Below are positions 15,418 to 50,193 of a stretch of 51,396 nt of DNA, one piece after another. The translations under genes and the position numbers were made by a program. The stretch lies in assembly GCA_014239265.1 (NCBI GenBank), contig JAAZZH010000007.1, positions 1 to 51,396 of the forward strand, written 5' to 3'. Numbering within the stretch: position 1 is the first letter of the stretch; each line of letters starts with the position of its first letter. The notes beneath the pieces are model-generated. The model saw nothing but the letters and a program-made list of their open reading frames with translations, did not search any database and had not been told where the DNA came from. The stretch comes from Actinomycetota bacterium. GTDB lineage: Bacteria; Actinomycetota; Acidimicrobiia; Actinomarinales; Actinomarinaceae.

Positions 15418-15419
15418 TT

Positions 15420-22089: not shown

Positions 22090-22092
22090 AAG

Positions 22093-22707: not shown

Positions 22708-22712
22708 AGAAA

Positions 22713-23542: not shown

Positions 23543-23545
23543 TTA

Positions 23546-32719: not shown

Positions 32720-33397
32720 TTAATTTACGAAGACTCTCTCTGCAATGTATTGATCTAAACCAAAGAATTTCTTATTTTCTGTGCTGACAGTAATCGAAAA
32801 TTCATTTGCATCCGCAATACTTATGTTGGAACCAGGAACTATTTTATTTTCTTGGAGAAAACTAATCATTGAGGCATCTCTTTTTAATTCTTCGGTAATT
32901 TTATTGATAGAGTATTTTCTATCTTTTTCAGCATTAAGTAAGTTAAATGTTTTTTGCTTTTTGTACTCTGAATAAGGTATCGGGTTCCCAAATAATCCCG
33001 TAGTAGGATTTCCCAGAAGAGAAAGCATAGCTTTTTCAGTTACTGGGCTCAAGATATTTTCCCACTTGGTTGCTTCCTCATAAACCTTCTCCCAAGGGAG
33101 TCCAAGAATTTCGGAAAGGAACCTTTCAACGATTCTGTGTCTTCGAGCAACTGTTTTTGCTAAGAACATTCCTTTTTCGGTAAGCTCAAGACTATCTTGG
33201 AACTTAATAAGGCCATTGTTTTGCATCCTTCCAGTAATTTGTGAAATATTTGCTCTACTTACATCTAGCCAGTCAGCTATTCTGGTTTGCTTAACTTCTA
33301 TTCCCACTTCAGTCAGATGAAAAATAGCAACAGCCTGGGTATAAAAAGAAGAAGGGAGTTTCTCCATTTCTTCATGTGATAATTTATTATTGTTCAT
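32720..33397 (-). CDS. DtxR/IdeR-family transcriptional regulator with altered metal-binding residues
   Basis: This 225-residue protein has the three DtxR parts: a winged helix-turn-helix (about 15-75, 'QTRIADWLDVSRANISQITGRM' split), the dimerisation/metal domain (about 78-140, 'RRHRIVERFLSEILGLPWEKVYEEATKWE' split, then 'LFGNPIP') and a C-terminal SH3/FeoA-like domain ('LQENKIVPGSNISI'). Aligned by eye to DtxR, H79, E83 and E105 are kept, but M10 becomes T, H98 Y, C102 T and H106 N. Classical Fe/Mn activation is therefore doubtful. The gene is divergent from ferrochelatase and iron-transport genes and has a TGTTAA-N6-TTAACA dyad 11 nt upstream, suggesting autoregulation. Confidence 0.88.
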   Translation of the reverse strand: MNNNKLSHEEMEKLPSSFYTQAVAIFHLTEVGIEVKQTRIADWLDVSRANISQITGRMQNNGLIKFQDSLELTEKGMFLAKTVARRHRIVERFLSEILGLPWEKVYEEATKWENILSPVTEKAMLSLLGNPTTGLFGNPIPYSEYKKQKTFNLLNAEKDRKYSINKITEELKRDASMISFLQENKIVPGSNISIADANEFSITVSTENKKFFGLDQYIAERVFVN

Positions 33398-33746: not shown

Positions 33747-34778
33747 ATGAATGAAAAATCTCATGCTACTTTACTTGTAAACCTAGGGTCTCCTAAAGAG
33801 CTGGATAAAAAAAGTGTTAGAGAATATTTAAAAATATTTTTATCAGATGATTACGTTGTTGATATTCCAAAAATCATACAACAATTAATTCTACGACTTT
33901 TTATCTTGCCATTCAGGCCGAAAACAACACTTCATGCTTATAAACAAATCTGGAGAAAGGACGGCTCACCCTTGATAGTTTCAACTTATAAAATAGCTGA
34001 AAAACTATCTAAAAAAACTAAGTCGAAAGTTTCTGTTGCTATGAGGTACGAAGAACCAAGTATTAAAGATGCACTCATAGAACTAAGAGAAGAAGGCTAT
34101 GAAAATATTACAGTAGCTCCACTCTATCCACATAATGCCATGGCAACCGTAATAACTACTCAGGTTGAAGTTATGAAAATATCTAAAGAGTGCTTTCCAG
34201 ATGCAAACATAAAATTTATTGAACCTTTTTATGGTAACCCTATGTACATTGATGCTATGGTTAAATCAATAAAGCCCTATCTAGAAAACAATAATTTTGA
34301 AAAATTAATATTTAGTTACCATGGTATTCCAGAAAGACAGGCGAGAAAAACTGATGAAACAGGATCACATTGTTTTGAGTCAGAAGATTGTTGTGAGCAA
34401 AACACTCTAGGGTCTAAAGATTGTTACAAATCTCATACTGTAAAAGCGTCAAATCAAATTGCTAATTCACTTGGCCTAGACGATGATCGTTGGGAAATAG
34501 CATACCAGTCAAGAATTGGACCAGGATGGCTAAAGCCATTTACTGACAAAAGGCTTGCAAGTCTACCTAATGAAGGTAAAAAATCTATTGCAGTAGTGTG
34601 TCCATCATTTATATCAGATTGCCTAGAAACACTCGAAGAAATAAATATAAGAGGCAGAAATACCTTTATTGATGCAGGTGGTGAAGAAATGACCTACATT
34701 CCATGTTTAAACGAAACTGATTTAACTATAGAGCTCATACAAGACCTAGTTAAAAAAGTTAAAAATAATTTTGCTTAA
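33747..34778 (+). CDS. hemH: Ferrochelatase
   Basis: This 343-residue enzyme inserts Fe2+ into a porphyrin. The catalytic His motif is 'FSYHGIPERQARKTD' (about 190-204), and the acidic face includes 'CPSFISDCLETLEEI' near 285-300. The segment 'YQSRIGPGWLKPFTD' and the order of motifs resemble protoporphyrin ferrochelatases of proteobacterial/Bacteroidetes type more than the coproporphyrin (CpfC) type usual in actinobacteria. This is a by-eye judgement. Four Cys between 206 and 225 ('HCFESEDCCEQ...DC') might be a metal site. The start carries no clear ribosome-binding site, and a candidate iron operator lies just upstream. Confidence 0.92.
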   Translation: MNEKSHATLLVNLGSPKELDKKSVREYLKIFLSDDYVVDIPKIIQQLILRLFILPFRPKTTLHAYKQIWRKDGSPLIVSTYKIAEKLSKKTKSKVSVAMRYEEPSIKDALIELREEGYENITVAPLYPHNAMATVITTQVEVMKISKECFPDANIKFIEPFYGNPMYIDAMVKSIKPYLENNNFEKLIFSYHGIPERQARKTDETGSHCFESEDCCEQNTLGSKDCYKSHTVKASNQIANSLGLDDDRWEIAYQSRIGPGWLKPFTDKRLASLPNEGKKSIAVVCPSFISDCLETLEEINIRGRNTFIDAGGEEMTYIPCLNETDLTIELIQDLVKKVKNNFA

Positions 34779-34784
34779 CAATTA

Positions 34785-34804
34785 TTGTTAAGTATTATTA
34801 ACAA
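34785..34804. promoter_or_regulatory. Candidate operator 3: TTGTTAA-N6-TTAACAA before the iron-binding lipoprotein gene
   Basis: A perfect dyad with 7-bp arms and spacer GTATTA, 29 nt upstream of the ATG. An overlapping larger palindrome (CTTAACAAT-T-ATTGTTAAG, 34774-34792) adds a third half-site. Confidence 0.62.
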
Positions 34805-34833
34805 AAGTAAAGAAAGAATAAGGATTGTATATT

Positions 34834-35946
34834 ATGAATAAAAAAACCACTTCTGTTCTTGTCGCCTTTCTGATGATCTTCACTGCATGTACAGGTGGAA
34901 GTTCTAGAGAAGCAGGTCCTCAAGGACAACAGGGAGAAAAAGGAGATGCAGGAGAAGTTAGTCAAGATTTAGTAGAAGCTGCAGTTGAGGCTGCTTTGGC
35001 TGAAGAAGAAGCACCAATAGAGGGATCTATAGTAATTTATAGCGGAAGAAAAGAAAGTTTAGTTGCTGACGTTATAGCTGCATTTGCAGCTGAAACTGGA
35101 GTAGAAGTTGAAGTTCGTTATGACAAAAGTGCTGCATTAGCAGGTACATTAGCTCTTGAGGGAGCAATTAGCCCAGCTGATGTTTTCTTATCGCAAGATC
35201 CAATAAGTCTAGGCGTAGTTGCAAAGGAAGGACTTTTTGAGGTCTTACCAGCTGACGTATTAGACAATGTTCCAGCATGGGCAGTTGACCAAAAAGGATA
35301 CTGGGTTGGAACATCTGGAAGGTCACGCTCACTTGTTATTGACACTAGAGATACAACTGATGCAGAAATGCCTTCAGATATTTATGGTTTAAATGATGAA
35401 AAATTTAGAGGAAGACTTGGTCTTGCCCCAGGTAACTCATCTTTCATAGCTATGGTTGCTTGTATGATTGAGTCAGATGGTGAAGAAAAAGTCGCCGAAT
35501 GGTTAAAAGCTATAAATGGTCTTGGGTATACAGAATATCCAAAGAACTCCCCTCAAGTTGCTGCGGCAGATGCAGGTGAGTTAGACATTGGAATGGTTAA
35601 TCATTATTACACATTGAGAGTATTAGCTGAAAATGGCGATAGCCCAGTTAAAAATGTTTATCTTGATGGTGGATGTGGTGCAATGGTCATGCCAGCTGGA
35701 GCAGGAGTTTTATCTTCTAGTCAAAATAAACCAGCAGCTATTGCATTTATTGAGTATCTACACTCAACAAATGCACAAGAGCATTTCACAAATACTGTAT
35801 TTGAGTTCCCACTGGTTCCAGGTATTACTCCAAATGCCTTATTACCAGAAATCGATAGTTTGAACTCTCCTGAGGATTTGAACTGGTCTGCATTAGCTTT
35901 ATGGCAAGAAAAAGCAGTAGAACTAATAGCACAGGCAGGTTTCTAA
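34834..35946 (+). CDS. fbpA: Fe(III) ABC transporter substrate-binding lipoprotein with collagen-like linker
   Basis: I start at ATG 34834, which has AAGGA upstream, rather than the TTG three codons earlier. The signal peptide ends at lipobox Cys19 ('FTAC'). The linker contains five Gly-X-Y triplets (GPQ GQQ GEK GDA GEV, about 28-42). From about residue 67 ('GSIVIYSGRKESLV') the protein matches FbpA/FutA-type iron-binding proteins, including 'RYDKSAAL' and the adjacent tyrosines of 'MVNHYYTLRVL' that ligate Fe3+ in the family. It would deliver iron to the permease and ATPase encoded after the next terminator. Confidence 0.92.
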   Translation: MNKKTTSVLVAFLMIFTACTGGSSREAGPQGQQGEKGDAGEVSQDLVEAAVEAALAEEEAPIEGSIVIYSGRKESLVADVIAAFAAETGVEVEVRYDKSAALAGTLALEGAISPADVFLSQDPISLGVVAKEGLFEVLPADVLDNVPAWAVDQKGYWVGTSGRSRSLVIDTRDTTDAEMPSDIYGLNDEKFRGRLGLAPGNSSFIAMVACMIESDGEEKVAEWLKAINGLGYTEYPKNSPQVAAADAGELDIGMVNHYYTLRVLAENGDSPVKNVYLDGGCGAMVMPAGAGVLSSSQNKPAAIAFIEYLHSTNAQEHFTNTVFEFPLVPGITPNALLPEIDSLNSPEDLNWSALALWQEKAVELIAQAGF

Positions 35947-35979
35947 AAGTCATTAGATACTAATGCTATATACAAAAGA

Positions 35980-36015
35980 AAAAAATCTGGTCACATCAAC
36001 CTGGCCAGATTTTTT
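35980..36015 (+). terminator. Intrinsic terminator after the iron-binding lipoprotein gene
   Basis: AAAAAATCTGG (35980-35990) pairs with CCAGATTTTTT (36005-36015), extendable by three pairs including a G-T wobble, with an 8-nt loop and T-run. It separates the highly expressed binding protein from the permease/ATPase genes. Confidence 0.88.
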
Positions 36016-36039
36016 CTTTATATAACTCATTAACATAGA

Positions 36040-36045
36040 TATTCT
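36040..36045 (+). promoter_or_regulatory. Leaderless -10 box (TATTCT) for the iron permease gene
   Basis: TATTCT, then six bases (TATAAC), then GTG 36052. It supports GTG as the true start and gives the permease/ATPase pair its own promoter after the terminator. A lone TTAACA half-site lies at 36030-36035. Confidence 0.55.
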
Positions 36046-36051
36046 TATAAC

Positions 36052-37608
36052 GTGAAAACTCCAAAAGCACTCATAATCACTAACTTCATTATTCTTATTA
36101 CCTTCCTACTCCCTACATTTTATTTAATCTGGAGATTTCTAACTTTTAGTAGATCTTATCTAAGTTTTTTTAGATCTTGGAATGTCTTTGACTTACTTTT
36201 AAATACAATGCTTTTATTTATTTTTGTTGTTATTTCAAGCTTAATTTTAGGTTTATTGATATCAATAATCCTTGTTCGCTTTAATATACCTGGTTCCAAA
36301 ATCTTATTTACCCTATCTGTGCTTCCTTTGGTTATCCCTTCTTACATTGGAGCATTAACTTATGTTTCAGCTTTTTCTCCTAAAGGTCTATTCGTACAAT
36401 TATTTTCCAGTCTTGGAATTAATGAGATAGCTGGAATTGATGGTTTTTTTGGTAGTTGGTTAGTTTTGACTTTATTTACATACCCTTACGTCGTATTAAT
36501 TTGTAGTAGCGCACTTCGAAATCTTGATTCTACTGTTGAAGATGCTGCACGATCGTTAGGTAAAAACAGATTTAATGTTTACACACAAGTTGTAATACCA
36601 AGATTAAAAAAACCAATTATCTTCTCTGGTCTCCTGGTTGGCTTGTATGTGATATCAGATTTTGGTGCAGTCTCATTGATGAGATACTCAACTCTTACAA
36701 AGGCTATTTATAGTTATTATGAATTTAATATAAACGGCGATCCAGTTATTTTTTACTCAAGCATCTTGATAGTTTTAGCACTGCTAATAAGTTTTATTCA
36801 AAGAGGATCGGAAGAGGCAAGATCAGCGAAAGTCAGTGGAACTCCAAAAATATCTGAAAAAACTAATCTAAGCCCAAGGTCTAAAGTACTAATTTATACC
36901 TTTTTGAGTTTAATTATTTTTTCAGGACTCGTTCTGCCGATATCAGTCTTAAGCTATTGGCTCATTAGAGGACTCTCAGCGGGGAATAGTGTTAGAGCTG
37001 TGTTTGGAGGAGTTGTTGGATCTCTAAGTGTGTCTCTGTTGGCAGCACTTTTTTCTGTAGTTGTGTCGACACCTATTATTATTATGGTCTCGCAATATCG
37101 ATCAAAATTTGGAAATATTTTAGAGAGAATTATGCTCGCACTTTATGGCTTACCACATATATCTGTAGGTGTTGCAATCTTATTTATTACAATTAAAATC
37201 TTTCCAGCGATATATCAAAGTTTTACAGCTTTAATTATCTCTTACTTAATAGTCTTTCTTCCTCAAGCAATTGGAGCAGGCCAGGCGTCTATGGAGCAGG
37301 TAAAATCAAGTTACTTAGATGCAAGTGCTGGATTGGGCTTGTCAAAGTTAAAAAGTTTTTACAGAATTACTCTACCATTAATATATAGAGGCTTATTTGC
37401 AGGTGGATCACTCGTCTTCTTATCAACAATGAAAGAATTACCACAAACGTTACTACTTAGGCCAACGGGTCTAAATACTATGGCTATTGATATATGGTCA
37501 TATGCATCTGAAGGATTATTTACTCAAGCAGCATTTTCTTCATTTATTTTGTTGGCAATAAGTGCAATTCCTACTTATATATTAAGTACAAGGAATTTAA
37601 CAACATAA
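36052..37608 (+). CDS. fbpB: Fe(III) ABC transporter permease (two fused permease domains)
   Basis: This 518-residue protein has about twelve hydrophobic helices in two homologous halves, the FbpB/SfuB/ThiP layout. The cytosolic EAA loops are 'EDAARSLGKNRFNVYTQVVIP' (first half, in two parts near 162-183) and 'LDASAGLGLSKLKSFYRITLP' (second half, near 422-443). It moves Fe3+ across the membrane. The GTG start is supported by a leaderless promoter. Its stop overlaps the ATPase start by one base. Confidence 0.92.
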   Translation: MKTPKALIITNFIILITFLLPTFYLIWRFLTFSRSYLSFFRSWNVFDLLLNTMLLFIFVVISSLILGLLISIILVRFNIPGSKILFTLSVLPLVIPSYIGALTYVSAFSPKGLFVQLFSSLGINEIAGIDGFFGSWLVLTLFTYPYVVLICSSALRNLDSTVEDAARSLGKNRFNVYTQVVIPRLKKPIIFSGLLVGLYVISDFGAVSLMRYSTLTKAIYSYYEFNINGDPVIFYSSILIVLALLISFIQRGSEEARSAKVSGTPKISEKTNLSPRSKVLIYTFLSLIIFSGLVLPISVLSYWLIRGLSAGNSVRAVFGGVVGSLSVSLLAALFSVVVSTPIIIMVSQYRSKFGNILERIMLALYGLPHISVGVAILFITIKIFPAIYQSFTALIISYLIVFLPQAIGAGQASMEQVKSSYLDASAGLGLSKLKSFYRITLPLIYRGLFAGGSLVFLSTMKELPQTLLLRPTGLNTMAIDIWSYASEGLFTQAAFSSFILLAISAIPTYILSTRNLTT

Positions 37609-38633
37609 TGGTATTTAACAGTCTTATTCTGAGAGCTAGAAACCTATCTAAGTCATATGGGGCTGAATCTGTTCTTTCCAATTTTAATATTGATATATGG
37701 GAGGGTTCAATTTTCGGAATACTAGGTACTTCTGGATCTGGAAAAACTACGGCTTTAAGAATGCTCGCAGGGTTTGAATTACCAGATTCAGGAAGCATCG
37801 AAATGTATAACAAAGTAATTTTTGATCAGGAAACTAACACACCACCTGAAAATAGAAACATAGGAATGGTTTTTCAAGATTATGCATTATTCCCACACCT
37901 AAACGTTGAAAAAAATATAGCTTTTGGTCTCAGCATAGAAGAGCAAAACAGTGGGCGATTGCAAGAAGTAATAGATATGTGTAACTTGACACAATATAAA
38001 AATAAATTTCCTCAAAAACTATCAGGAGGACAACAACAAAGAGTGGCTTTAGCTAGAGCACTTGCACCAAAACCAGAGATGATTCTCCTCGATGAACCCT
38101 TTACAAGTTTAGATGCCCAAATGGCGAGAGTCCTTAGAGATGAGGTCGTGTCTCTTTTGAGAGAGACTCAAACTACTGCAATAATTGTTACACATGATCA
38201 AGAGGAAGCCTTATCGGTATGCGATATCGTCAGTGTTTTGGAAAATGGAAATGTTATACAAAGTGCAACTCCTCAAGAGATTTACTTGAATCCAATCAGT
38301 CAATCTGTAGCAAATTCAGTTGGGGATCCAAATATTCTTAAGGGATTTTCAGTAGATGGAAGAGTAGAAACATCCCTTGGAAGTTTCACCTCAGCATATG
38401 AGGGTGCTCTAGATGTATCAATACGTCCGGAGTGTATCGAAATCAACTTAGACTCTATGGGTCCTTATACAGTTAAAGAGTGCACTTTTTACGGACATGA
38501 TCAAGTTATCTCTTTTCAGAACAACAAAGGCGAGATATTCCGATCAAGATCTCTTCCGTCTGTTATTTATGAACCAGGGGATAAGATTTGTATTGAAGTT
38601 TCGGAAGTAACTACTTTTCCTTCAAATAAGTAG
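37608..38633 (+). CDS. fbpC: Fe(III) ABC transporter ATP-binding protein
   Basis: This 341-residue ATPase has Walker A 'GTSGSGKTT' (about 41-49), Q-loop 'VFQDYALFPHL', signature 'LSGGQQQRVALARAL', Walker B 'MILLDEPFTSLD' and switch His in 'VTHDQEEAL'. The last ~95 residues form a TOBE-like regulatory domain ('SIRPECIEI'). The 3' end overlaps a small minus-strand ORF by 12 nt. Confidence 0.93.
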   Translation: MVFNSLILRARNLSKSYGAESVLSNFNIDIWEGSIFGILGTSGSGKTTALRMLAGFELPDSGSIEMYNKVIFDQETNTPPENRNIGMVFQDYALFPHLNVEKNIAFGLSIEEQNSGRLQEVIDMCNLTQYKNKFPQKLSGGQQQRVALARALAPKPEMILLDEPFTSLDAQMARVLRDEVVSLLRETQTTAIIVTHDQEEALSVCDIVSVLENGNVIQSATPQEIYLNPISQSVANSVGDPNILKGFSVDGRVETSLGSFTSAYEGALDVSIRPECIEINLDSMGPYTVKECTFYGHDQVISFQNNKGEIFRSRSLPSVIYEPGDKICIEVSEVTTFPSNK

Positions 38634-38816
38634 TTTAATCTTAGATACCTTTCCTGCGATTGCTTGAAGTGCTATTTCAGTTTCAGAAAGATAATTTGTA
38701 GCTCTTTTAAAGTTATTCTCTGCAATAAGCTCTCTTGAATTTGCTAGTGACTTTACTAAAGTGTTTAATTCGCGAATTAAGTTATCTAATTCATTATTAA
38801 TTTCATTAATATCCAT
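38622..38816 (-). CDS. Small coiled-coil protein, divergent from heliorhodopsin
   Basis: I do not recognise this 64-residue ORF. It is almost entirely predicted helix with heptad-like hydrophobic spacing ('INNELDNLIRELNTLVKSLA', then 'YLSETEIALQAIAGKVSKIK'). A TAGTAT -10 box 7 nt before the ATG supports leaderless expression. It is head-to-head with the heliorhodopsin gene, with 48 bp between start codons, so the two may share regulation. A chance ORF is possible given the overlap with the upstream gene's end. Confidence 0.5.
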   Translation of the reverse strand: MDINEINNELDNLIRELNTLVKSLANSRELIAENNFKRATNYLSETEIALQAIAGKVSKIKLLI

Positions 38817-38864
38817 ATCTGTAATACTAGGGTTTAGAGTATTTAATAAAAAAGGTAAAAAATA

Positions 38865-39668
38865 ATGGAAGCAAAAATTCAGAAGCTTAAGAAATTTAAT
38901 TTAAGGATGGGATTAGTACACCTTATCCAAGGAGCAGGTTTATTTTATTTGGGAACCGTAGTAAATACAGGTTTCACAGTACCTTTAACAATTACTCAAC
39001 TTATTGGAGTTGGAACTCCTGAAGACCCATCAAGCTTCGCTTTAGTTCCAGAACTACAAATCTGGAGAGAGGTATCAAACTTCGGACCTGCAGTTGCAAC
39101 ATTTTTGTTGGCATCAGCACTCGCACATTTTCTTATATCGGGCCCTTTCTATAACAGGTATAAAGCAGATTTAATGAAAGGTATTAATAAAGTCCGCTGG
39201 ATAGAGTACTCCATTAGTGCTTCAGTAATGATTGTGTTAATAGCTTTACTTGTAGGAATTTATGATGTTTGGGCACTAGCTGGAATTTTCGTCATGAATG
39301 CTGCAATGTGTTGGTTTGGTTGGATGATGGAAGTACACAATCAATATACTGAAAAAGTTGATTGGACTGCTTATATCATGGGTTGTTTAGCTGGTATTGC
39401 ACCGTGGATTTTTATTTTTATTAATTTAATAGGTGATGGAGTTGCTACAGATGCAAACCCTCAAGGGGTTCCCCAGTTCGTAGTTTGGATATTTGTTAGT
39501 ATATTTTTCTTTTTTAATACCTTTTCAATTAATATGATTCTTCAATATAAAGGTGTAGGAAAGTGGAAAGACTATTTATACGGCGAAAGAGCCTATATAT
39601 GGTTAAGTTTACTTGCTAAAACTTGTCTAGCTTGGCAAGTATTTGCTGGAACATATCAACCAAACTAA
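38865..39668 (+). CDS. Heliorhodopsin (type-3 retinal protein)
   Basis: This 267-residue protein has seven hydrophobic helices and clear heliorhodopsin signatures. Helix C reads 'RWIEYSISASVM' (111-122), with counterion E114. Helix G reads 'WLSLLAKTCLAWQVFAGT' (246-263), with the retinal Schiff-base Lys at K252 and the preceding Ser248. Retinal-pocket histidines are at H19 and H88. A long A-B loop (about 36-62) fits the extracellular beta-hairpin. It lacks the DTE/DTD-type pump motif, and heliorhodopsins in general are not known as proton pumps; sensory or enzyme-modulating roles are proposed. Family topology is inverted (N-terminus inside). AAGG lies 10 nt before the ATG. No retinal-synthesis gene is in the window. 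Confidence 0.97.
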   Translation: MEAKIQKLKKFNLRMGLVHLIQGAGLFYLGTVVNTGFTVPLTITQLIGVGTPEDPSSFALVPELQIWREVSNFGPAVATFLLASALAHFLISGPFYNRYKADLMKGINKVRWIEYSISASVMIVLIALLVGIYDVWALAGIFVMNAAMCWFGWMMEVHNQYTEKVDWTAYIMGCLAGIAPWIFIFINLIGDGVATDANPQGVPQFVVWIFVSIFFFFNTFSINMILQYKGVGKWKDYLYGERAYIWLSLLAKTCLAWQVFAGTYQPN

Positions 39669-39675
39669 TTTAGGA

Positions 39676-39747
39676 TTATTTAATCTTTCTCCCAAAGAAG
39701 ATTACTAAAAGGATTATTAAGAAAAGCCCAATGTAGGAAAAGGCCAT
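39676..39747 (-). CDS. 23-residue single-helix membrane ORF coupled to the DUF4349 gene
   Basis: The ATG shares its first base with the DUF4349 stop (TAATG). The 23 residues form one hydrophobic helix followed by a basic end ('LLVIFFGRKIK'), resembling a TatA N-terminal helix without its amphipathic helix. It might be a microprotein or a chance ORF. Confidence 0.35.
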   Translation of the reverse strand: MAFSYIGLFLIILLVIFFGRKIK

Positions 39748-40520
39748 TATTCTCTTTTTCTCAGTTTCTTAATTAATAAGAATATTAAGAAAATTGGGAA
39801 AGCAATTATTCCGATTGAAAAAGTAATTCCAACGATGCTCTCAATCCAATTAAGGCTTCTCTCAAAATAATAATTCCAGGAAAATAATGAAATTCCAGAA
39901 CCTTCCCTGATATTTAATGTGAGTTTTGAGTAAGAAATGGCATTTGTGTAGTATTCTTTTTGACCCTTAAGCATCTCAATATCCTGATTGATATAACGAA
40001 GTTGATTTTGAACCTCTAAGCGGTCAGATGTTGTTTTCGCTTCAAGTTTGATCTCCTCAAGTGCTTCTTTTTCATTCGCCAATGAAGATAACCTTGAGTC
40101 AATATCTAAAACATAAGTTGTAACATCGTTTGCATTGATGCTGATATCTGAAAAGTCTTTAATATTTTCAACGTCGAGTATAAATTGATCAAAATCTGTG
40201 GCAGGTATGTTTGAGGTGATACTAAAACTCTTTAAGCCTTGATAATTAGTAGATAAATATGAGTCAGAAACATTGCCATTGTATTGAGTAACAAGATTTT
40301 TAAATTCATCAACTTTCTTATCAAAATTAGATGTGCTGACATCCATACTTCCATAGGCAGATTTGATGATGTACTCTCCAGGAGAAAGTGAACTACTTTC
40401 TATTGAGTCAGATGCCATCCTATATGGCTCAATGCCTATCTCAGTAAAACCCTCTTCCGTTATGTTTGCCTGGCATGCACTAAGGATTATTAATATAAAT
40501 AATGTTTTTAAAAATTTCAT
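39747..40520 (-). CDS. DUF4349-family lipoprotein
   Basis: This 257-residue protein has a lipoprotein signal (lipobox 'LSAC', C16). The extracytoplasmic region carries DUF4349 features: 'KSAYGSMDVSTSNFDKKVDEFKNLV', 'DVTTYVLDIDSRLSSLANEKEAL' and a helical 'LEVQNQLRYINQDIEMLKGQ' region (each given in part). A C-terminal membrane helix follows (about 225-252) with a basic end. It is therefore anchored at both ends. Function is unknown. It lies 16 nt after the phosphatase-like gene. Confidence 0.82.
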   Translation of the reverse strand: MKFLKTLFILIILSACQANITEEGFTEIGIEPYRMASDSIESSSLSPGEYIIKSAYGSMDVSTSNFDKKVDEFKNLVTQYNGNVSDSYLSTNYQGLKSFSITSNIPATDFDQFILDVENIKDFSDISINANDVTTYVLDIDSRLSSLANEKEALEEIKLEAKTTSDRLEVQNQLRYINQDIEMLKGQKEYYTNAISYSKLTLNIREGSGISLFSWNYYFERSLNWIESIVGITFSIGIIAFPIFLIFLLIKKLRKRE

Positions 40521-40536: not shown

Positions 40537-41631
40537 TTAAAAGTTTTTAATTTCTATAACAGGGACCCGCATTTCTTCTGGTGTAATTCCTCCATGGTAT
40601 CCAACCAAGTCGGCCTTTAAATGTTTTGGAAAAATAATGTATCCATCATCTACAAGGAAACAGTGTTCAGGATAAATCCTTTTGTTTAAATTATTTATAG
40701 GTTCTCCGATTAAGTGTCTCATTTCTACACTGTTAAGAAAATGTCCAGGGACATTCTTAAATATTTCTTTAACCTTCGTCTCATCACCATTGATATAAAC
40801 ACTTCTCTGATCTCCGTAGATAACAACATCCTCCTCATAATCTAGGTAAATCCGATTTTCATTAGAGATGTTTGTGAGACCATGATCTGCCGTTATCAAG
40901 GTATACATTTTTTTGGATTGAGTACTGTTTAAATTCTTTATAAACATTTCAAAAATACCAACCTCCTCATGCCACTGAGCACTACCTACTCCAAAAACAT
41001 GGGCTGAGATATCAATATTCGGATAGTAAATAAAATTAAAGCGATTATCCAATATTGAAGAATCACTAACTATTTCATTTAACTCTTCTGTATCTCTGTA
41101 TGCAATCTGATGGGAGTCTTTGTAGATGTATTCAGACAATGCACTATCTACTAAGTCGCGAGGCTGAAGGTTATTAGAGGTAATACCCCTTGTTTTTAAA
41201 AGTGTCCATATGGTTTGTCGGTCTAAAATATCTGGATGTTTTAATAATGATTTGTTTTCTTTATTCCAGTTTAAGGCATTAATAAGTCCGTGCTCTTGTC
41301 TATCAAAGAGATAATAACCTAAAATTGATGTCTCCACGGGCTTAGATACATAGTTAATAGTGCTTAAAGCAACATTTGTTGAACTAGGAAAAGTTGAATT
41401 TACAGAAAAAGAATTTGAATCCTTTAAATAATCAGACTCAGCTAGTTTTAAGTTTTCACTTCCAAGGCCATCTGCTAAAACAAAATTTATGGTTTCTGCT
41501 TCAAGAATTTTAGAATCAAGATTTATTTCATGTTCTTCGTGAAAGTCATCTGTCCCCGTAACTACATTAAAGAGTTTTTTTGATAGGTCGAGTAAGTTAC
41601 TTTTTCCTAAAATATTTTCAAGATTGCTCAT
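40537..41631 (-). CDS. Alkaline-phosphatase-superfamily phosphodiesterase/nucleotide pyrophosphatase-like enzyme
   Basis: This 364-residue protein has the metal-binding pattern of the NPP/alkaline phosphatase fold: 'FVLADGLG' (D54), a nucleophile Thr in 'FPSSTNVALS' (T85), 'YYPNIDISAHVFG' (Asp/His pair), 'ITADHGLT' and the late 'YHGGITPEEMRVPVI' His. It lacks a signal peptide, so it appears cytosolic. Substrate is unknown. It is divergent from the second nuo operon with 76 bp between starts. Confidence 0.85.
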   Translation of the reverse strand: MSNLENILGKSNLLDLSKKLFNVVTGTDDFHEEHEINLDSKILEAETINFVLADGLGSENLKLAESDYLKDSNSFSVNSTFPSSTNVALSTINYVSKPVETSILGYYLFDRQEHGLINALNWNKENKSLLKHPDILDRQTIWTLLKTRGITSNNLQPRDLVDSALSEYIYKDSHQIAYRDTEELNEIVSDSSILDNRFNFIYYPNIDISAHVFGVGSAQWHEEVGIFEMFIKNLNSTQSKKMYTLITADHGLTNISNENRIYLDYEEDVVIYGDQRSVYINGDETKVKEIFKNVPGHFLNSVEMRHLIGEPINNLNKRIYPEHCFLVDDGYIIFPKHLKADLVGYHGGITPEEMRVPVIEIKNF

Positions 41632-41707: not shown

Positions 41708-42073
41708 ATGAATTCTTATTTTCAGGAGTACGCAACAGTAGCAGTATTGTTAGCAGTGGGCATTATATTTATGCTCATTTTGACATCTATTGCAGCTATT
41801 CTCAGACCGAATAATCCCTCTCCCGAAAAACTAACAACCTATGAGTCAGGTGTTGACCCCGTCGGGACTGGTTGGAGTCAGACTTACATCCGATACTATA
41901 TTTTTGGCCTATTGTTTGTAATTTTTGATGTTGAAGCAGTATTCATATTCCCATGGGCAATTAATCTTGAGAAGCTAGGTTATTTTGGTTTAGTAGAAAT
42001 GCTAGTTTTTATTTTTATTTTGTTAATCGGATTAATTTATGCAATCAGAAAGGATGTATTGAAATGGGAGTAG
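41708..42073 (+). CDS. nuoA: Complex I subunit A (operon 2)
   Basis: This 121-residue three-helix subunit has the conserved loop as '[10 protein letters not shown]' (about 44-53). The Cys of the usual ECG loop is Ser here ('ESG'), as in several NuoA/NdhC proteins. It is the first gene of an ABCDHIJKLMN operon that lacks EFG. The end overlaps nuoB2 by 10 nt. Confidence 0.94.
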
Positions 42074-42561
42074 TTGATAAATTCGGATTACCAAAACCGA
42101 TATCGTCAGTTTTAAACTGGGCTAGGTCATACTCTTTGTGGTATTTCCAATTCGGATTAGCTTGCTGTGCAATAGAAGTTATGGCAGTAAGTGGACCTAG
42201 ACATGATTTCATGAGACTTGGAATTATCCCACTACCTGCATCACCAAGACAAGCTGATTTAATGGTTGTCGCTGGAACAGTTACTGACAAAATGGCGCCG
42301 GCAGTAAAAAGACTATATGATCAAATGCCAGAGCCAAAATATGTTATATCTATGGGTTCTTGTTCAAATAGCGGTGGTCCATATTGGGATTCATACTCTG
42401 TTACAAAAGGTGTAGATCAACTTATCCCTGTTGACGTATACGTACCAGGATGTCCGCCAAGACCTGAAGCATTACAAGAGGGAATTATTCTCCTACAAGA
42501 AAAAATAAGAGGAGAAGACATGAAAGAAAAATGGAAAGCAGATCAAAATGAACCCGTCTAG
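42064..42561 (+). CDS. nuoB: Complex I subunit B, cluster N2 (operon 2)
   Basis: This 165-residue subunit has the N2 ligands C34-C35, C100 ('GSCSNSGG') and C130 ('VPGCPPRP'). It is diverged from the operon 1 copy but retains every ligand, so electron delivery to quinone should be intact. Overlap with nuoC2 is 14 nt. Confidence 0.97.
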
Positions 42562-43099
42562 CAATGCAGAGTTTATAGAGTCAATATCTACAAGATTTTC
42601 TAATGTAGAAAATGAATTTGATACCCTTAAAATAAAAGTAAAACCAGAAGAATGGGTAGAAACAGCAAAAATTCTTAAAGAAGAATTCCAGCTTACTTAC
42701 TTTTCATGGCTAAGCGCCATTGATTGGGAAAATGAAGTTTCAGTAGGAGACCCCCCAAAAGAATCAGTATCACCACATTTTGAAATAGTTTTTTGCTTAT
42801 CAGAGTCAATTGAAGGCAATATTGTTTTAGTATCTACTGAAATAGAAAAAGAAGATGCAATGATTCCTTCTTTAATTGAGGTTTTTGCAGGTTCTAATTG
42901 GCATGAACGAGAAGCATATGAAATGTTTGGTATAGAGTTCAATAATCATCCAAACCTGACAAAAATGTATCTTCCAGATGACTACGAGGGAAATCCAATG
43001 CTCAAATCATTTGAGTTAATTAGTAGAGAAGTAAAGCCATGGCCTGGTGAAGTAGATGTTGAAGGTATGCCAGAAAACGGTTCAAAGGAAGGTAACTAA
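42548..43099 (+). CDS. nuoC: Complex I subunit C (operon 2)
   Basis: This 183-residue protein is identified by '[13 protein letters not shown]', '[23 protein letters not shown]' and '[17 protein letters not shown]' (each in part). It has a fuller N-terminal domain than the 136-residue operon 1 copy. The stop is 1 nt before the nuoD2 start, and AAGGAAGG near its end serves nuoD2. Confidence 0.94.
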
Positions 43100-43100
43100 A

Positions 43101-44297
43101 ATGGATGATATTTTAAATACCGGAAATGTTCCTTATATTTCAGAAGCTTCGGTCTCAGTTGAAATAGAAACTGAAGATATGACTTTAAACATTGGCCCAC
43201 AACATCCCTCAACTCATGGTGTATTAAGACTGGTTGCCAAAGTAGATGGAGAAAAAATTTCAAGTGTCGAGCCTGTCCTGGGTTATATGCACAGAGGCTA
43301 TGAAAAATTAGCTGAGGTCAGAACATATCCCCAAATTACAACACTTGTTAATAGAATTGATTGGGTATCGGGTTTTGCTAATGAGATACCTTTCATTGCT
43401 GCAACTGAAAAGCTAATGGAGATAGAAGCACCTGAAAGAGCAAAGCACATCAGGTTAATTCTCACAGAGATGGCAAGAATTGCTTCTCATTTTGTATTTA
43501 ACGGAGCTTACGCATTAGAGATTGGAGCGTTAACTCCTATATTTTTAGCAATGGAGGATAGAGAAAGAATACTTGATTTAATAGAATCAGTAACAGGTGG
43601 TAGGTTTCATCCCAATTTTAATAGAATAGGTGGAGTAAAACCAGCAGCAGGTTCTGGCCCCACAACCAAAAAAAATGTACAAGATCTACCAGCAGGTTTC
43701 TATCAAGAAACTAGAGATGCAATGGAGAAGGTTCTAGAAGCAGTTGAGAGAATGGAAGATTTAGTTGGTGGCAACGAAGTCTTTAAGGCTAGGACCAAAG
43801 GAGTTGGGATAATATCCAAAGAACTTGCTGAAGAATATGGAGTCTCTGGTCCGATATTGAGAGCATCTGGAGTAAAGTTTGATTTAAGAACTCAAACCGA
43901 TTTCTTACCCTATGACAAATTTGAATACGAGATTCCTGTTGGAGAAAATGGAGATTGTTATGATCGTTGGTACGTTCGACTATTAGAGATGAGAGAGTCA
44001 GCTAAAATTATACTTCAAGCTATCGACTCTATGCCAAGTGGACCCCTACAGACAAAAGTTCCGAAGGTTATAAAAGTACCTAAGGGACGATCTTATGTAA
44101 GGACAGAGAATCCAAAAGGTGAAATGGGATACTATGTAATTTCTGAGGGTGGGCTAGGTCCATACCGACTAAAAATTCGAACACCCTCCTTTAGCAATAT
44201 TTCAATCCTACCGGTGCTGCTTGAGGGTCAATTGTTACCTGATCTGATTGCAATCATGGGTAGTCTAGATTTTGTTTTAGGAGATGTTGATAGATGA
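43101..44297 (+). CDS. nuoD: Complex I subunit D (operon 2)
   Basis: I start at ATG 43101, which follows AAGGAAGGT and the nuoC2 stop. A further upstream in-frame ATG (43056) would add 15 residues inside nuoC2. The 398-residue protein has 'LNIGPQHPSTHG', quinone-site His, and Tyr in 'HRGYEKLAEVRTY'. Neither pair of [NiFe] cysteines is present, so this is a quinone-reducing complex rather than a membrane hydrogenase. It overlaps nuoH2 by 4 nt, directly skipping E, F and G. Confidence 0.95.
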   Translation: MDDILNTGNVPYISEASVSVEIETEDMTLNIGPQHPSTHGVLRLVAKVDGEKISSVEPVLGYMHRGYEKLAEVRTYPQITTLVNRIDWVSGFANEIPFIAATEKLMEIEAPERAKHIRLILTEMARIASHFVFNGAYALEIGALTPIFLAMEDRERILDLIESVTGGRFHPNFNRIGGVKPAAGSGPTTKKNVQDLPAGFYQETRDAMEKVLEAVERMEDLVGGNEVFKARTKGVGIISKELAEEYGVSGPILRASGVKFDLRTQTDFLPYDKFEYEIPVGENGDCYDRWYVRLLEMRESAKIILQAIDSMPSGPLQTKVPKVIKVPKGRSYVRTENPKGEMGYYVISEGGLGPYRLKIRTPSFSNISILPVLLEGQLLPDLIAIMGSLDFVLGDVDR

Positions 44298-45274
44298 TTG
44301 ATGGTTCTCAAATATTAGTAACCGCAGGTATCGTTTTAGCATTTGCACTAAACGGAGCGGTAATTTTTACAATTCTTGATGTTAAAGGAGCATCATGGAT
44401 GCAAAGAAGACCTGGACCCCTTCACGTTGGCTTAAGAGGATTCATTTTTCCATTAGCTGAAATAATTAAATTTTTCCAAAAAGAAGACATTACACCGACA
44501 AATGTTGACGCTCCTGTCTTTAAATGGGCACCAGCTTATGTACTTGCATCAGTCTTTGGTTTGTTCGTTGTTGTACCAATCAGCCCAACTTTAGTTGGGA
44601 GTGATTTAGAATTAGGAGTCTTCTATTTGCTAGCCATAAGTTCACTATCAACACTAGGGGTTCTTACTGCGGGTTGGTCCTCAGCAAACAAGTACTCTTT
44701 AATGGGTGGAATACGTGCTGCAGGACAGCTAATTGCATATGAACTTCCATTAATTCTTTCTGTAGTTGGAGTTGTCATCCAGGCCGAAACCATGTCACTT
44801 GTGGGGATAGTTGAGAAACAAATAGAATTTGGACTTCCATTTGCACTTTCTGGCCAAGGTCTTGCCTTCCTAATTTTTATGATAGCTGCAACAGCTGAAA
44901 TGATGAGAGTACCATTCGATATGCCAATTGGTGAGTCTGAACTTGTTAGTGGATTTTTAACAGAATATTCTGGCGTAAGATTTTTAATATTTTATATTGC
45001 TGAATACATGAACATGTTTGTCTTATGTGCAGTTGCTTCCACATTATTTTTAGGTGGATATCATGTTCCACTTCTCCCACCTGAATGGGTCAATTTTTAT
45101 GGACCAGTTGTCTTAATTACCAAAACAGTTTTGCTTGGCTTCATATTAGTTTTAGTGAGATGGTCATTTCCTAGATTCAGGGAAGATCAGCTACAAAACT
45201 TAGCATGGAAGGTTTTAATTCCCCTTTCTTTACTCAACATATTGATAACATCCATTATGAAAGTTGTATTTTAA
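44294..45274 (+). CDS. nuoH: Complex I subunit H (operon 2)
   Basis: This 326-residue eight-helix subunit has a diverged first cytosolic loop: 'QRRPGPLHVGLRG' (about 36-48) replaces the RVGPxRxGPxG pattern of operon 1. The acidic loop 'AEMMRVPFDMPIGESELVSGF' retains the Glu/Asp residues. The shorter length and altered loop fit complexes without the N-module. nuoI2 starts immediately after the stop. Confidence 0.95.
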   Translation: MIDGSQILVTAGIVLAFALNGAVIFTILDVKGASWMQRRPGPLHVGLRGFIFPLAEIIKFFQKEDITPTNVDAPVFKWAPAYVLASVFGLFVVVPISPTLVGSDLELGVFYLLAISSLSTLGVLTAGWSSANKYSLMGGIRAAGQLIAYELPLILSVVGVVIQAETMSLVGIVEKQIEFGLPFALSGQGLAFLIFMIAATAEMMRVPFDMPIGESELVSGFLTEYSGVRFLIFYIAEYMNMFVLCAVASTLFLGGYHVPLLPPEWVNFYGPVVLITKTVLLGFILVLVRWSFPRFREDQLQNLAWKVLIPLSLLNILITSIMKVVF

Positions 45275-45760
45275 ATGAAAAAATTTAGACCTAAATTACC
45301 AGGCTTTTTGACAGGAATGAAAATTCTTTTATTTAATATGTTCAAAACATTATCTCCACTAAGTCCAAATCCAAATGTTAATTATCCGTTTGAAAAAGAA
45401 ATTGTTGCACCCAGAGCAAGGGGAGTCATAGCCCTTGATACAGATGCTTGTACTAGCTGCATGCTTTGTGCGAGACAATGTCCAGATTGGTGTATCTACA
45501 TAGAAGGACATAAAGAATTACAACCCCCTGCAAAACCTGGTGGTAGGGAACGCAGTAGAGCAGTTCTTGACAGGTTCGATATTGATTACGCTCTCTGCAT
45601 GTATTGCGGAATTTGTGTTGAAGTATGCCCTTTTGATGCATTATTTTGGACACCAGAGTACGAATATTCAGAATACAATATGGGAGATATGCTTCATGAT
45701 AAAAATAGACTCGATCAATGGCTAAACACAGTTCCTGAAGTGGAAGGTTTAGAAAGTTAA
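45275..45760 (+). CDS. nuoI: Complex I subunit I, 2x[4Fe-4S] (operon 2)
   Basis: This 161-residue subunit has ligands C59, C62, C65, C69 and C108, C111, C114, C118. In a complex without EFG this is the outermost cluster-bearing subunit, so it is the likely docking point for a soluble donor such as ferredoxin (inference). An unusual basic N-terminus (MKKFRPK) and a loop 'PPAKPGGRERSRAVLDRFD' between the motifs are exposed candidates for binding. Confidence 0.96.
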   Translation: MKKFRPKLPGFLTGMKILLFNMFKTLSPLSPNPNVNYPFEKEIVAPRARGVIALDTDACTSCMLCARQCPDWCIYIEGHKELQPPAKPGGRERSRAVLDRFDIDYALCMYCGICVEVCPFDALFWTPEYEYSEYNMGDMLHDKNRLDQWLNTVPEVEGLES

Positions 45761-45761
45761 A

Positions 45762-46280
45762 ATGGAAGCACTGGACATAATTAGTTATTTTTTACTTTTA
45801 GGACTTTTATTAGTTTCTGTAAAAGTTGTCACAACTTCAAATGTTATTCATGCCGCAATATCTTTAGTTTTCACATTAGCCATAACTGCAGCAACTTTTT
45901 TACTACTGTCCGCTCAATTCGTTGCACTCGTGATAGTTCTTGTATACATAGGAGCTGTAATAGTTCTTTTCTTGTTTGGAATAATGATCACTAGAGCACC
46001 ATTAGGTCAAAATGCGGAATTAGATAATGATAACAATAAAAGCTTTGCACTAGTTGTCTCACTATCAATTTTTGTAATTTTTTCATATGTGATGTTTAAT
46101 ACATTCGATACGCAAATTATTGTTACAACAGGAACCTCAACAGAATTACTTGGTGAGATTTTATTAAGTAGGTTTGTATTTCCTTTCGAAGTAGTCTCTT
46201 TTGTTTTACTCGCAGCTTTAATTGGTGGAATCACCTTGGCAAGGCAAGATAATGCCTTAGTTGATGAGAATCAAATATGA
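45762..46280 (+). CDS. nuoJ: Complex I subunit J (operon 2)
   Basis: This 172-residue subunit has five hydrophobic helices, with the conserved helix 'LVIVLVYIGAVIVLFLFGIMI' at about 56-76. It starts 1 nt after nuoI2 and overlaps nuoK2 by 4 nt. Confidence 0.95.
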   Translation: MEALDIISYFLLLGLLLVSVKVVTTSNVIHAAISLVFTLAITAATFLLLSAQFVALVIVLVYIGAVIVLFLFGIMITRAPLGQNAELDNDNNKSFALVVSLSIFVIFSYVMFNTFDTQIIVTTGTSTELLGEILLSRFVFPFEVVSFVLLAALIGGITLARQDNALVDENQI

Positions 46281-46582
46281 GCGTTCAACCCTTTTTAATT
46301 GCAGCAGCAGGATTATTTTCAATTGGGATTTATGGAATTCTAGTTAGAAGAAATGTTGTTATGGTGTTGTTGTCTATTGAGCTAATCCTTAATGCTGTAA
46401 ACATAAACTTTGTAGTCTTCAACGCAATGTTAGGAGATGTATTGTTACAGGGTCAAATTTTTACTATTTTCATTATCACCATAGCCGCTGCTGAAGTAGG
46501 TATTGGTTTGGCGATTGTTTTAATGTTGTTTAGAAATAGAAAAACTGCAAATATTGATGAATTTGATTTGTTGAAATGGTAA
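46277..46582 (+). CDS. nuoK: Complex I subunit K (operon 2)
   Basis: This 101-residue, three-helix subunit has the buried glutamates in 'VMVLLSIELILNAVNI' and 'IITIAAAEVGIGLAI'. It overlaps nuoL2 by 7 nt. Confidence 0.96.
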   Translation: MSVQPFLIAAAGLFSIGIYGILVRRNVVMVLLSIELILNAVNINFVVFNAMLGDVLLQGQIFTIFIITIAAAEVGIGLAIVLMLFRNRKTANIDEFDLLKW

Positions 46583-48594
46583 ATAGTAATTTAATCACCT
46601 TTCTAGCTGAAGGAAAACTTACATACACCGACGGTGGAGCTTTCGCTGAATACACTTGGTTGATTGTCGTTCTCCCATTTATAGCTGCTCTTCTAATTAC
46701 TTTTTTTGGTAAATATCTACCACTTAAGGGTGCTGAAATTGCGCTTGCTACGATAGGTTTTATCTTTGCTTTCAGTTCGTATCTACTCTATTTGAATGTC
46801 ACAGAAGGGGTAGCTTCAGAATTTTTTATCAATGTGGGAAGCATTGGTTCATTTGATCTTGAATTTGGTTGGGTGGTAGACGGCCTTTCTATAATGATGT
46901 ATTTTGTTGTTGGGACAGTGGCTAGTTTAGTTTTCATTTACGCCACAAATTATATGCAGGGAGAAGTCAGATATACTTTTTTCTTCACCTCTCTAACTTT
47001 GTTTGCTGGAAGTATGTTAGTTTTGGTTTCCTCACCAACATTATTACAACTTTTAATTGGATGGGAGCTAGTAGGTGTTTGCTCCTATTTGTTAATTGGT
47101 CATTATTGGGAAAAGAAAGAGAACTCATCTGCTGCTATGAAGGCTTTTATAACTAACAAAATTGCAGATGTTGGATTAATGATTGGAATAATTGTGCTGG
47201 CGCTTTCTACGGGTACGATGAGAATAAGTGAAATTTTATATCAATCAACTCATGATTATGAGTCACTTAAATCAGTTGCGTATCTGGCTGGAGTTTTACT
47301 ATTCATAGGGGCTATGGGTAAAAGTGCTCAGTTCCCCCTTCATGTCTGGCTACCTGATGCAATGGCGGGTCCAACACCAGTCTCAGCACTAATGCACGCA
47401 GCAACAATGGTTACAGCAGGTGTTTATTTACTAGCAAGAATGTTTCCTTTTTATGAAGGTATGGCAAGCGAAGCATTGGACGTAGTTTTACTGTTTGGAG
47501 TTATAACCCTTTTTGCAGCTGGAATGATAGCCATAGTTCAAGATGATCTAAAAAAAGTTCTTGCATATTCAACTGTTAGTCAGCTTGGATACATGGTGGC
47601 TGCTATTGGATCTGGAGCTTATACAGCTGCATTATTTCACCTTTGGACACATGCTTTTTTTAAAGCCCTACTGTTTCTTGGTGCAGGATCAGTAATTCAT
47701 GCTGTACATACAAACAGCATGAAAGAAATGGGTGGGCTTAGAAAAGAGATGCCCAGAACATATACAACATTTATTCTGGGAACAATTGCTCTTGCAGGAC
47801 TACCCCCTCTTGCTGGCTTTTTCTCAAAAGATGAGATACTTGCCTCTTTAAATCATGGAGGATATAGCACTTATTTTGCTATTGCTGTAGCAGGTGCTTT
47901 TATCACTGCTTTTTATATGACTAGAGCAGTGGTTCTAACATTTTTTGGGGAGTATAGAGGTAATGGACATCCCCACGAGTCAGACTCTATGATGACGACA
48001 CCCCTTATTGTACTTGCAGGCTTCGCAGTAACCGCTGGGTGGGTAAACATTCCAGGAATATATACGGGCTTTACTGATTGGGTTACCACAAGGAAAAACC
48101 CTATAGTCGAGTATCATCCTGAATCTTTTGACTATTTTGCATTAACAAGTGGCTTACTCGCTGGGCTAGCTGGTATTGGACTTGCTTACTATGTATATCA
48201 AATTTTAGGTAGACCAGAAGACGGAGATGAAAAGATTAAAGTTGAGCCAATATGGAACCTTCTTGAAAATAAATATTACTTAGATGATTTTTATTTCAAA
48301 TACATCATAAATCCAACTAAATCCACACTTGCAAATACTATTGATAGGTTTAATACAAATATTCTAGATAAAGCTGTGAATCTATTTGGAGTTGCAGCTA
48401 TATTCCTTGGAAATATTGTGTACAACAAATTTGACCAAGGGGGGATAGATAAAGCGTTAAACATATCATCTTCATCTACTGACGCATTGGGTGCAAGGGT
48501 AAAACTTCTTCAGACTGGAAAAGCTCAACAATATATTATGTATTTTTTAAGCGGAGTAATAGTAATTAGCTTATTAATTTTGTTAGTGTTATAG
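46576..48594 (+). CDS. nuoL: Complex I subunit L, antiporter-like proton pump (operon 2)
   Basis: This 672-residue pump subunit has the TM5 Glu motif 'IGWELVGVCSYLLIGHYW' and TM7 Lys motif 'GAMGKSAQFPLHVWLPDAM'. It is about 40 residues longer than the operon 1 copy, with most of the extra length in the N-terminus ('MVNSNLITFLAEGKLTYTDGG') and the C-terminal arm. GGAGG after its stop serves nuoM2. Confidence 0.96.
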   Translation: MVNSNLITFLAEGKLTYTDGGAFAEYTWLIVVLPFIAALLITFFGKYLPLKGAEIALATIGFIFAFSSYLLYLNVTEGVASEFFINVGSIGSFDLEFGWVVDGLSIMMYFVVGTVASLVFIYATNYMQGEVRYTFFFTSLTLFAGSMLVLVSSPTLLQLLIGWELVGVCSYLLIGHYWEKKENSSAAMKAFITNKIADVGLMIGIIVLALSTGTMRISEILYQSTHDYESLKSVAYLAGVLLFIGAMGKSAQFPLHVWLPDAMAGPTPVSALMHAATMVTAGVYLLARMFPFYEGMASEALDVVLLFGVITLFAAGMIAIVQDDLKKVLAYSTVSQLGYMVAAIGSGAYTAALFHLWTHAFFKALLFLGAGSVIHAVHTNSMKEMGGLRKEMPRTYTTFILGTIALAGLPPLAGFFSKDEILASLNHGGYSTYFAIAVAGAFITAFYMTRAVVLTFFGEYRGNGHPHESDSMMTTPLIVLAGFAVTAGWVNIPGIYTGFTDWVTTRKNPIVEYHPESFDYFALTSGLLAGLAGIGLAYYVYQILGRPEDGDEKIKVEPIWNLLENKYYLDDFYFKYIINPTKSTLANTIDRFNTNILDKAVNLFGVAAIFLGNIVYNKFDQGGIDKALNISSSSTDALGARVKLLQTGKAQQYIMYFLSGVIVISLLILLVL

Positions 48595-48602
48595 GAGGAA
48601 AA

Positions 48603-50192
48603 ATGGAAATAGTAACTAATAATTTTGAATTTTTAGAGAATGGACTGGGTATAACCTTAGTTGTATTCCTCCCTCTAGTCAGTGCTTTAGTCGTTGCACT
48701 ATTGCCAAAAAAACAAGAGTTATTGATAAAATTAACAGCACTTGGTTCTTCACTAATCACTTTCATATTAAGCGTAATTATTGCTATTCAGTTTGATTAC
48801 TCCAAAGCAGAACAGTTTCAGCTGGGAAATAAACTTTCTTGGATAGAGGCAATAAATTCTAATTATGAAATTGGTATTGATGGCATATCCTTACCTATGC
48901 TCCTTCTTTCAACCTTTATTACAGTATTAGCAATAATTTATTCCTTCGAGCATTTACCGGAGCCAAAAAGTCCAAAGGGAATGATGGCGCTTATTTTAAT
49001 CTTAGAAACTGGAATGAACGGTACTTTCGTAGCGTTAGATTTAATACTCTTCTTTGTATTCTTTGAACTTGTTCTACTACCTATGTATTTCATGATTGGA
49101 ATTTGGGGAGATAAAACAATGAGGAGTGTTGCTGGTCTTAAAAATGAAGTTGAGACTCGCTTATACGCAAGTATTAAGTTTTTTGTTTTTACACTTTTCG
49201 GTTCTGCTTTTATGCTGCTTGGGTTTTTAGGTCTTTATTTCAGAGGAGCCAAAACTTTCAGTATTCCTGAGTTAATAGAATTAGGAACAAGTGGGGCATT
49301 TACTGGAACTTTTGCAACACTCGTTTTTGCAGTTCTATTCTTGGGCTTCGCAGTTAAGGTTCCAATGTGGCCTCTCCATACTTGGCTTCCAGATGCTCAT
49401 ACGGCAGCACCAACAGTTGGATCAGTGTTACTTGCCGCAATACTTCTAAAATTAGGTTCCTATGGATTTATAAGAATTGCTTTACCAATTTTACCTGAGC
49501 AAGCACAAGCTTGGGCGCCGGCTATTGCAATATTGTCAGCTATTGGAATAATTTATGGTTCATTAGCATGTCTAGCACAAACTGACCTCAAAAGGTTAAT
49601 AGCTTTTTCATCAGTGGGTCACATGGGTTTTGTAATGCTAGGAATCTCCTCTTTGACTTCTATTGGTATAAATGCTGCAATAATTGGCATGGTTGCACAC
49701 GGTGTCATTACGGGCTTACTTTTCTTCTTATCTGGATCGATGGCCCACACTTATCACACCAGAGATATGGGAAGACTTGGTGGAAATATGAAACTTTTAC
49801 CCAAAACTGGTGGATTACTTGCATTTACAGCAATGGCCTCACTTGGACTACCAGGACTAGCAGGTTTCTGGGGAGAATTTATGGCTCTATTAGGAGCATA
49901 CAATCCATTACCAGGACTAAATATCACAATATTCAGAACATCCATGGTTGCTGGGGCAATAGGTACAGTTCTGACTGCTGGCTATTTACTCTGGATGCTT
50001 CAAAGAGTTAATTTAGGAGAGCCAAATGACGAATGGAAAGATAAGGAACTCCATGATGCAGATGCATACGAATTAGCAGCTTGGATACCCCTCGTTATTT
50101 TAACGATTTTAATTGGCGTATTCCCTAAGTTAATTTTCGGATCTACAAATGATGCTGTAATCAGTTTGGTTACTAAAGCATTCGGAGGCTAA
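48603..50192 (+). CDS. nuoM: Complex I subunit M, antiporter-like proton pump (operon 2)
   Basis: This 529-residue pump subunit has 'FFELVLLPMYFMIGIWGD' (TM5 Glu) and 'AVKVPMWPLHTWLPDAH' (TM7 Lys). The strong ribosome-binding site AGGAGG lies before ATG 48603. An insertion 'MRSVAGLKNEVETRLYA' follows TM5. The 3' end encodes GGAGG (50184-50188), placed to start nuoN2. Confidence 0.96.
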   Translation: MEIVTNNFEFLENGLGITLVVFLPLVSALVVALLPKKQELLIKLTALGSSLITFILSVIIAIQFDYSKAEQFQLGNKLSWIEAINSNYEIGIDGISLPMLLLSTFITVLAIIYSFEHLPEPKSPKGMMALILILETGMNGTFVALDLILFFVFFELVLLPMYFMIGIWGDKTMRSVAGLKNEVETRLYASIKFFVFTLFGSAFMLLGFLGLYFRGAKTFSIPELIELGTSGAFTGTFATLVFAVLFLGFAVKVPMWPLHTWLPDAHTAAPTVGSVLLAAILLKLGSYGFIRIALPILPEQAQAWAPAIAILSAIGIIYGSLACLAQTDLKRLIAFSSVGHMGFVMLGISSLTSIGINAAIIGMVAHGVITGLLFFLSGSMAHTYHTRDMGRLGGNMKLLPKTGGLLAFTAMASLGLPGLAGFWGEFMALLGAYNPLPGLNITIFRTSMVAGAIGTVLTAGYLLWMLQRVNLGEPNDEWKDKELHDADAYELAAWIPLVILTILIGVFPKLIFGSTNDAVISLVTKAFGG

Positions 50193-50193
50193 T

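Follow-up and report, generated by a model that had tools for sequence, protein, structure and literature searches.

The heliorhodopsin locus of Candidatus Actinomarina: a monocistronic heliorhodopsin gene beside two small conserved genes

The function of heliorhodopsins (HeRs) is unsettled in most lineages, and Candidatus Actinomarina, a widespread surface-ocean group, carries one of them. Regulation of a partner protein through positively charged cytoplasmic loops has been published for two HeR systems, in which the partner is glutamine synthetase or the OmrDE ABC transporter. Proton transport has been reported for coccolithovirus HeRs, and in viral HeRs it is described as needing Glu191 and Trp195 (V2HeR3 numbering). 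For Ca. Actinomarinales, PMC7771536 (Lopez-Perez et al. 2020) places HeR always between two nuo operons, with a ferric-iron ABC transporter, a ferrochelatase and an iron-dependent repressor of the DtxR/IdeR type lying between the same operons, and it suggests that the second nuo cluster, which has no nuoEFG, may use F420. The layout of HeR, two nuo operons and ferric-iron genes has thus been known since 2020.

The window analysed here is a stretch of 51,396 nucleotides with the same nuo and iron layout, including a second nuo cluster devoid of EFG. Its relatives at 80-100% identity are single-cell genomes and MAGs of Candidatus Actinomarina, to which the source genome belongs. The gene at 38865-39668 on the plus strand encodes a canonical and genuine heliorhodopsin of 267 amino acids, as the original prediction had claimed. 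Residues 8-263 match Pfam PF18761 (E=5.5e-88, 294.8 bits against a cut-off of 26.7), the NCBIfam model NF038020 is matched with 312.8 bits (cut-off 100), so that the protein passes curated thresholds over its full length, and its relatives with solved structures are the heliorhodopsins TaHeR (6IS6) and 48C12 (6SU3). The helix C motif R111-W112-I113-E114-Y115, the Schiff-base Lys252 and the pair His19/His88 all sit where they had been predicted, and together with the counterion Glu114 they reproduce the Schiff-base Lys, Glu counterion and His pair of TaHeR and 48C12, from which the Actinomarina protein differs in a longer first extracellular loop. Glu114, Lys252 and His88 are identical in 149/149 aligned HeRs, and His19 in all 145 that have a residue at that position. 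Simple pairwise estimates give a median dN/dS of 0.028, demonstrating strong purifying selection.

The family and the counterion are shared with the proton-transporting viral V2HeR3, whose Glu191/Trp195 gate is missing from the Actinomarina protein. Mapped via TaHeR, the two positions are filled by Ile213 and Phe217, which are invariant in 24/24 Actinomarina HeRs checked, and TaHeR likewise carries hydrophobic residues there. Proton transport of the coccolithovirus kind would find some encouragement in a conserved Gln227/Glu241 pair, which matches the proton-accepting region of TaHeR, but both residues described as needed for transport have been replaced, and this reading is regarded as highly improbable. 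A non-transporting, sensor-like HeR is the default reading of these gate residues.

The explanation favoured here, with moderate confidence for the whole of it, is that the Actinomarina HeR would act as a slow retinal photosensor that pumps no ions and would use its cytoplasmic loops to alter the state of a partner protein bound to it. Such a sensor acting via a partner is the best-supported view by analogy, leaning on the glutamine synthetase and OmrDE precedents: AbHeR (glutamine synthetase) and OcHeR (OmrDE) have a positively charged cytoplasmic loop 3, as does the Actinomarina HeR, in which Lys229 and Lys233 of this loop are invariant. AbHeR and OcHeR share an operon with their partners, whereas the Actinomarina HeR is transcribed alone. 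Special conservation of the cytoplasmic loops was sought by within-genus entropy and among the aligned HeRs and was absent; within the genus, these loops are no more conserved than the extracellular ones (mean entropy 0.50, 0.22 and 0.15 against 0.38, 0.20 and 0.14), so the sequences give no sign of a special cytoplasmic interface. Loop entropy counts against the favoured explanation, as do the undetected retinal-forming dioxygenase described below and a gene order drawn from one genus.

HeR is present in 36/42 Actinomarina genomes, including 8/8 of those with at least 90% completeness. True loss in the remaining six was ruled out: the fbpB orthologue and the phosphodiesterase gene, which flank HeR in three near-complete genomes included in the same search, are missing from all six as well, and the misses are therefore read as assembly gaps. 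The gene looks universal, part of the core genome of Candidatus Actinomarina, and highly constrained. In the drawn tree, the Actinomarina HeR has a long stem and does not fall within the main Acidimicrobiia HeR clade, nor do four other acidimicrobial HeRs (L142, L143, L145 and L161). Its grouping with the main clade has a support of only 36/75 and the rival grouping was not rejected, a placement too insecure for an origin by horizontal transfer to be either favoured or dismissed.

The original prediction had set HeR between iron transport and an 11-subunit complex I operon, about 2 kb upstream of nuoA2 and head-to-head with a small ORF, and each of these statements was borne out. Upstream lie a DtxR/IdeR-type metal-dependent repressor gene (32720-33397, minus strand; NCBIfam DtxR E=4e-37, below the curated cut-off) and, on the plus strand at 33747-38633, the ferrochelatase gene hemH and the ferric-iron ABC importer genes fbpA, fbpB and fbpC, assigned by profile and PDB matches. 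The ferric-iron specificity of the importer is read from its binding protein, whose best PDB match is an iron-utilization protein (E=5e-64). hemH (33747-34778) is on the plus strand in the window and in L034, whereas most relatives in which it has stayed close by have it on the minus strand. The small ORF encodes a 64-aa protein (38622-38816, minus strand) and is separated from HeR by a divergent spacer of 48 bp between the start codons (38817-38864; 44-60 bp in relatives). Downstream on the minus strand are a gene for a DUF4349 protein, a probable lipoprotein with a C-terminal membrane span (39747-40520; PF14257, E=5e-32), and one for a protein of the type I phosphodiesterase/alkaline-phosphatase superfamily (40537-41631; PF01663, E=6e-11), which comes after HeR in every locus that is long enough to tell, whether DUF4349 is present or not. 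The second complex I cluster occupies the plus strand from 41708 to 51396, and profile matches identify nuoA, B, C, D, H, I, J, K, L, M and part of nuoN, cut by the window end, 11 nuo genes in total with no E, F or G; the first nuo cluster (14127-28391) has all three. The HeR stop lies 2.04 kb from nuoA2 (41708).

Both immediate neighbours of HeR are on the opposite strand and the genes between HeR and nuo are convergent with it, so HeR and nuo share no transcript. HeR is monocistronic, with no same-strand neighbour in a common transcription unit, unlike the HeR groups that have glutamine synthetase, photolyase or an ABC transporter as operon partner. A promoter and terminator scan gave nothing above chance.

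The same surroundings recur throughout the genus. In 35 Actinomarina loci, which are related genomes rather than independent events, the genes follow one another, as far as each contig extends, in the almost unchanging order thymidine kinase, a gene for a small membrane protein, repressor, fbpABC, 64-aa gene, HeR, (DUF4349), phosphodiesterase and nuo. The original prediction would have been refuted had no neighbour been conserved, but neighbours are kept in all Actinomarina loci. Since nearly every adjacency in the region is conserved across the genus, that of HeR says little, and the gene order of one genus cannot separate functional linkage from inertia. Beyond the genus the linkage is not conserved. 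Among 40 HeR loci of other Acidimicrobiia (9-20 kb each, most 18-20 kb), the 64-aa gene, DUF4349 and the phosphodiesterase of the Actinomarina locus were found in none, and nuo was near HeR in one, L152, with nuoABCD one gene away. The L152 HeR falls in another HeR clade, and L151, its close sister, is without nuo in the vicinity. By our own rough estimate, in a 1.1 Mb genome with two nuo operons a HeR would have a chance of ~6% of lying within 10 kb of either, and 1/40 is about what chance would give for long operons. After this class-wide check, nuo linkage was set aside as weak functional evidence, and the closeness of HeR and nuo looks like a one-off arrangement.

These data bear on a further explanation, by which light sensing for the 11-subunit complex I, or else for iron uptake, would be the dedicated role of HeR and would be reflected in its neighbourhood. 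With one exception, every Actinomarina locus that is long enough has HeR set between the two nuo operons with iron genes alongside; in the exception, contig L058, nuo is inverted, which may be an assembly artefact. HeR is nevertheless neither co-oriented nor co-transcribed with nuo, the regional order is nearly fixed in the genus regardless, nuo is near so few HeRs elsewhere in the class, and a placement with the chance estimated above amounts to a single evolutionary event; a dedicated sensor is considered improbable. The link of HeR to respiration or iron drawn from the neighbourhood is weakly supported, light control of either being neither shown nor excluded, and recognizing this heads off an inference that is appealing but poorly founded. 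Under the favoured explanation of a non-pumping photosensor acting via a bound partner, the spot between the nuo operons and iron genes would be a single ancestral placement kept by the general stability of gene order in streamlined genomes, and no indication of an action on complex I or iron uptake. In L058 (11784-12929), nuoB2-D2 are seemingly inverted beside the phosphodiesterase gene at a contig end, which could be a single-cell amplification chimera.

The use of F420 by the second nuo cluster, as suggested in PMC7771536, was also examined. The FrhB/FpoF-type C-terminal domain (PF04432) was found in 0/42 Actinomarina genomes while the positive controls matched, which leaves an F420H2 dehydrogenase (Fpo) reading without an F420 input subunit in these genomes and weakens the published suggestion. 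In addition, NuoD2 fits NuoD better than FpoD, with an FpoD score below the cut-off of that model.

The 64-aa ORF is the best of the leads given by the original prediction: it lies next to HeR in all Actinomarina loci that were inspected and, judged by its conservation, is a real gene. The protein keeps a constant length in 20/20 aligned homologues with 15 invariant columns, the median dN/dS from simple pairwise estimates is 0.15, and AlphaFold2 predicts a two-helix hairpin with a mean pLDDT of 96. The gene occurs in exactly the 36 HeR-bearing Actinomarina genomes, a presence that tracks the assembly of the same contig as HeR. Searches of 353 other Acidimicrobiia genomes and of 396 genomes sampled from the phylum gave no further significant homologue, so that as far as searched it is confined to Actinomarina. 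Assignment to a known family was dropped, as Pfam, NCBIfam and Foldseek returned noise only. The 3' end of the gene shares 12 bp with fbpC in the window and 9-12 bp in 35/35 measurable loci, and this overlap by itself discourages separation of the 64-aa gene from its place.

Open reading frames of 72 bp are so short that gene finders would usually skip such genes. One of them, MAFSYIGLFLIILLVIFFGRKIK, occupies the roughly 80-bp spacer 3' of HeR (39676-39747, minus strand) and was absent from the original prediction; it encodes a 23-aa peptide with a predicted single hydrophobic membrane span and a basic tail at the end. It is convergent with HeR, the two stops being 7 bp apart. The ORF begins with ATG or GTG, ends with a stop and spans 23 codons free of indels in 36/36 loci (the window and 35 relatives), and the other reading frames of the region contain stops in 25-36 of the 36. 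Differences across these loci concentrate at third codon positions (7205, against 4501 at first and 1052 at second positions), and simple pairwise estimates give a median dN/dS of 0.19. A family search returned sub-threshold matches only, and a known family was dropped for this peptide as well. In the window, the DUF4349 stop and the start of the 23-aa ORF overlap (TAATG), and in loci lacking DUF4349 the ORF generally lies close behind the phosphodiesterase gene; from this overlap and position, the phosphodiesterase operon probably ends with it. The 64-aa and 23-aa genes appear to be conserved and undescribed, and the available portion of PMC7771536 contains no mention of either, or of DUF4349 loss.

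DUF4349 itself, which the original prediction had proposed to test for synteny and partnership with HeR, proved dispensable: among 36 HeR genomes it is adjacent to HeR in 23, elsewhere in two and absent from 11, and with 13/36 absent or moved it was ruled out as the partner. Where it is lacking, only ~80-140 bp separate HeR from the phosphodiesterase gene. In the two genomes with DUF4349 elsewhere, the 23-aa ORF remains beside HeR. The moved copies, in L225 (2724-3518) and L226 (2234-3028), have another neighbourhood with no 23-aa ORF, beside a DUF1295-like membrane protein gene, reflecting relocation or separate acquisition.

If the partner of HeR were a genetic neighbour, the 64-aa hairpin protein would be the first candidate, a tentative suggestion, with the 23-aa membrane peptide as the candidate after it. 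A more specific proposal makes HeR, the hairpin protein and possibly the peptide a photoreceptor-adaptor module in which light-changed HeR would bind or release a small protein. Both small genes lie beside HeR in every locus examined with fixed size and under purifying selection, they remain where DUF4349 has been deleted or moved, no other home for the 64-aa protein emerged from the class and phylum searches, and the divergent spacer of 44-60 bp suggests that HeR and the 64-aa gene are controlled together. However, the upstream adjacencies are conserved just as well, the fbpC overlap alone resists rearrangement, the 23-aa ORF reads as the final gene of another operon, the 64-aa gene is lacking from 136 relatives of the same class that carry HeR, and Foldseek gave no significant structural relative of its product; the module is accordingly considered unlikely. 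That HeR and one or two undescribed small proteins, the soluble hairpin and the membrane peptide, would form a compact photoreceptor-adaptor unit is doubtful, and if true it would be a mode not found reported in the heliorhodopsin literature surveyed. For the favoured photosensor with a bound partner, the two genes are concrete candidates that can be tested cheaply.

Retinal is probably scavenged by Actinomarina. The retinal-forming dioxygenase family PF15461 gave no match in 42 genomes, in a search whose controls gave no signal either, and with no dioxygenase detected retinal would have to be scavenged, which agrees with PMC7771536. The source genome also encodes a type 1 rhodopsin.
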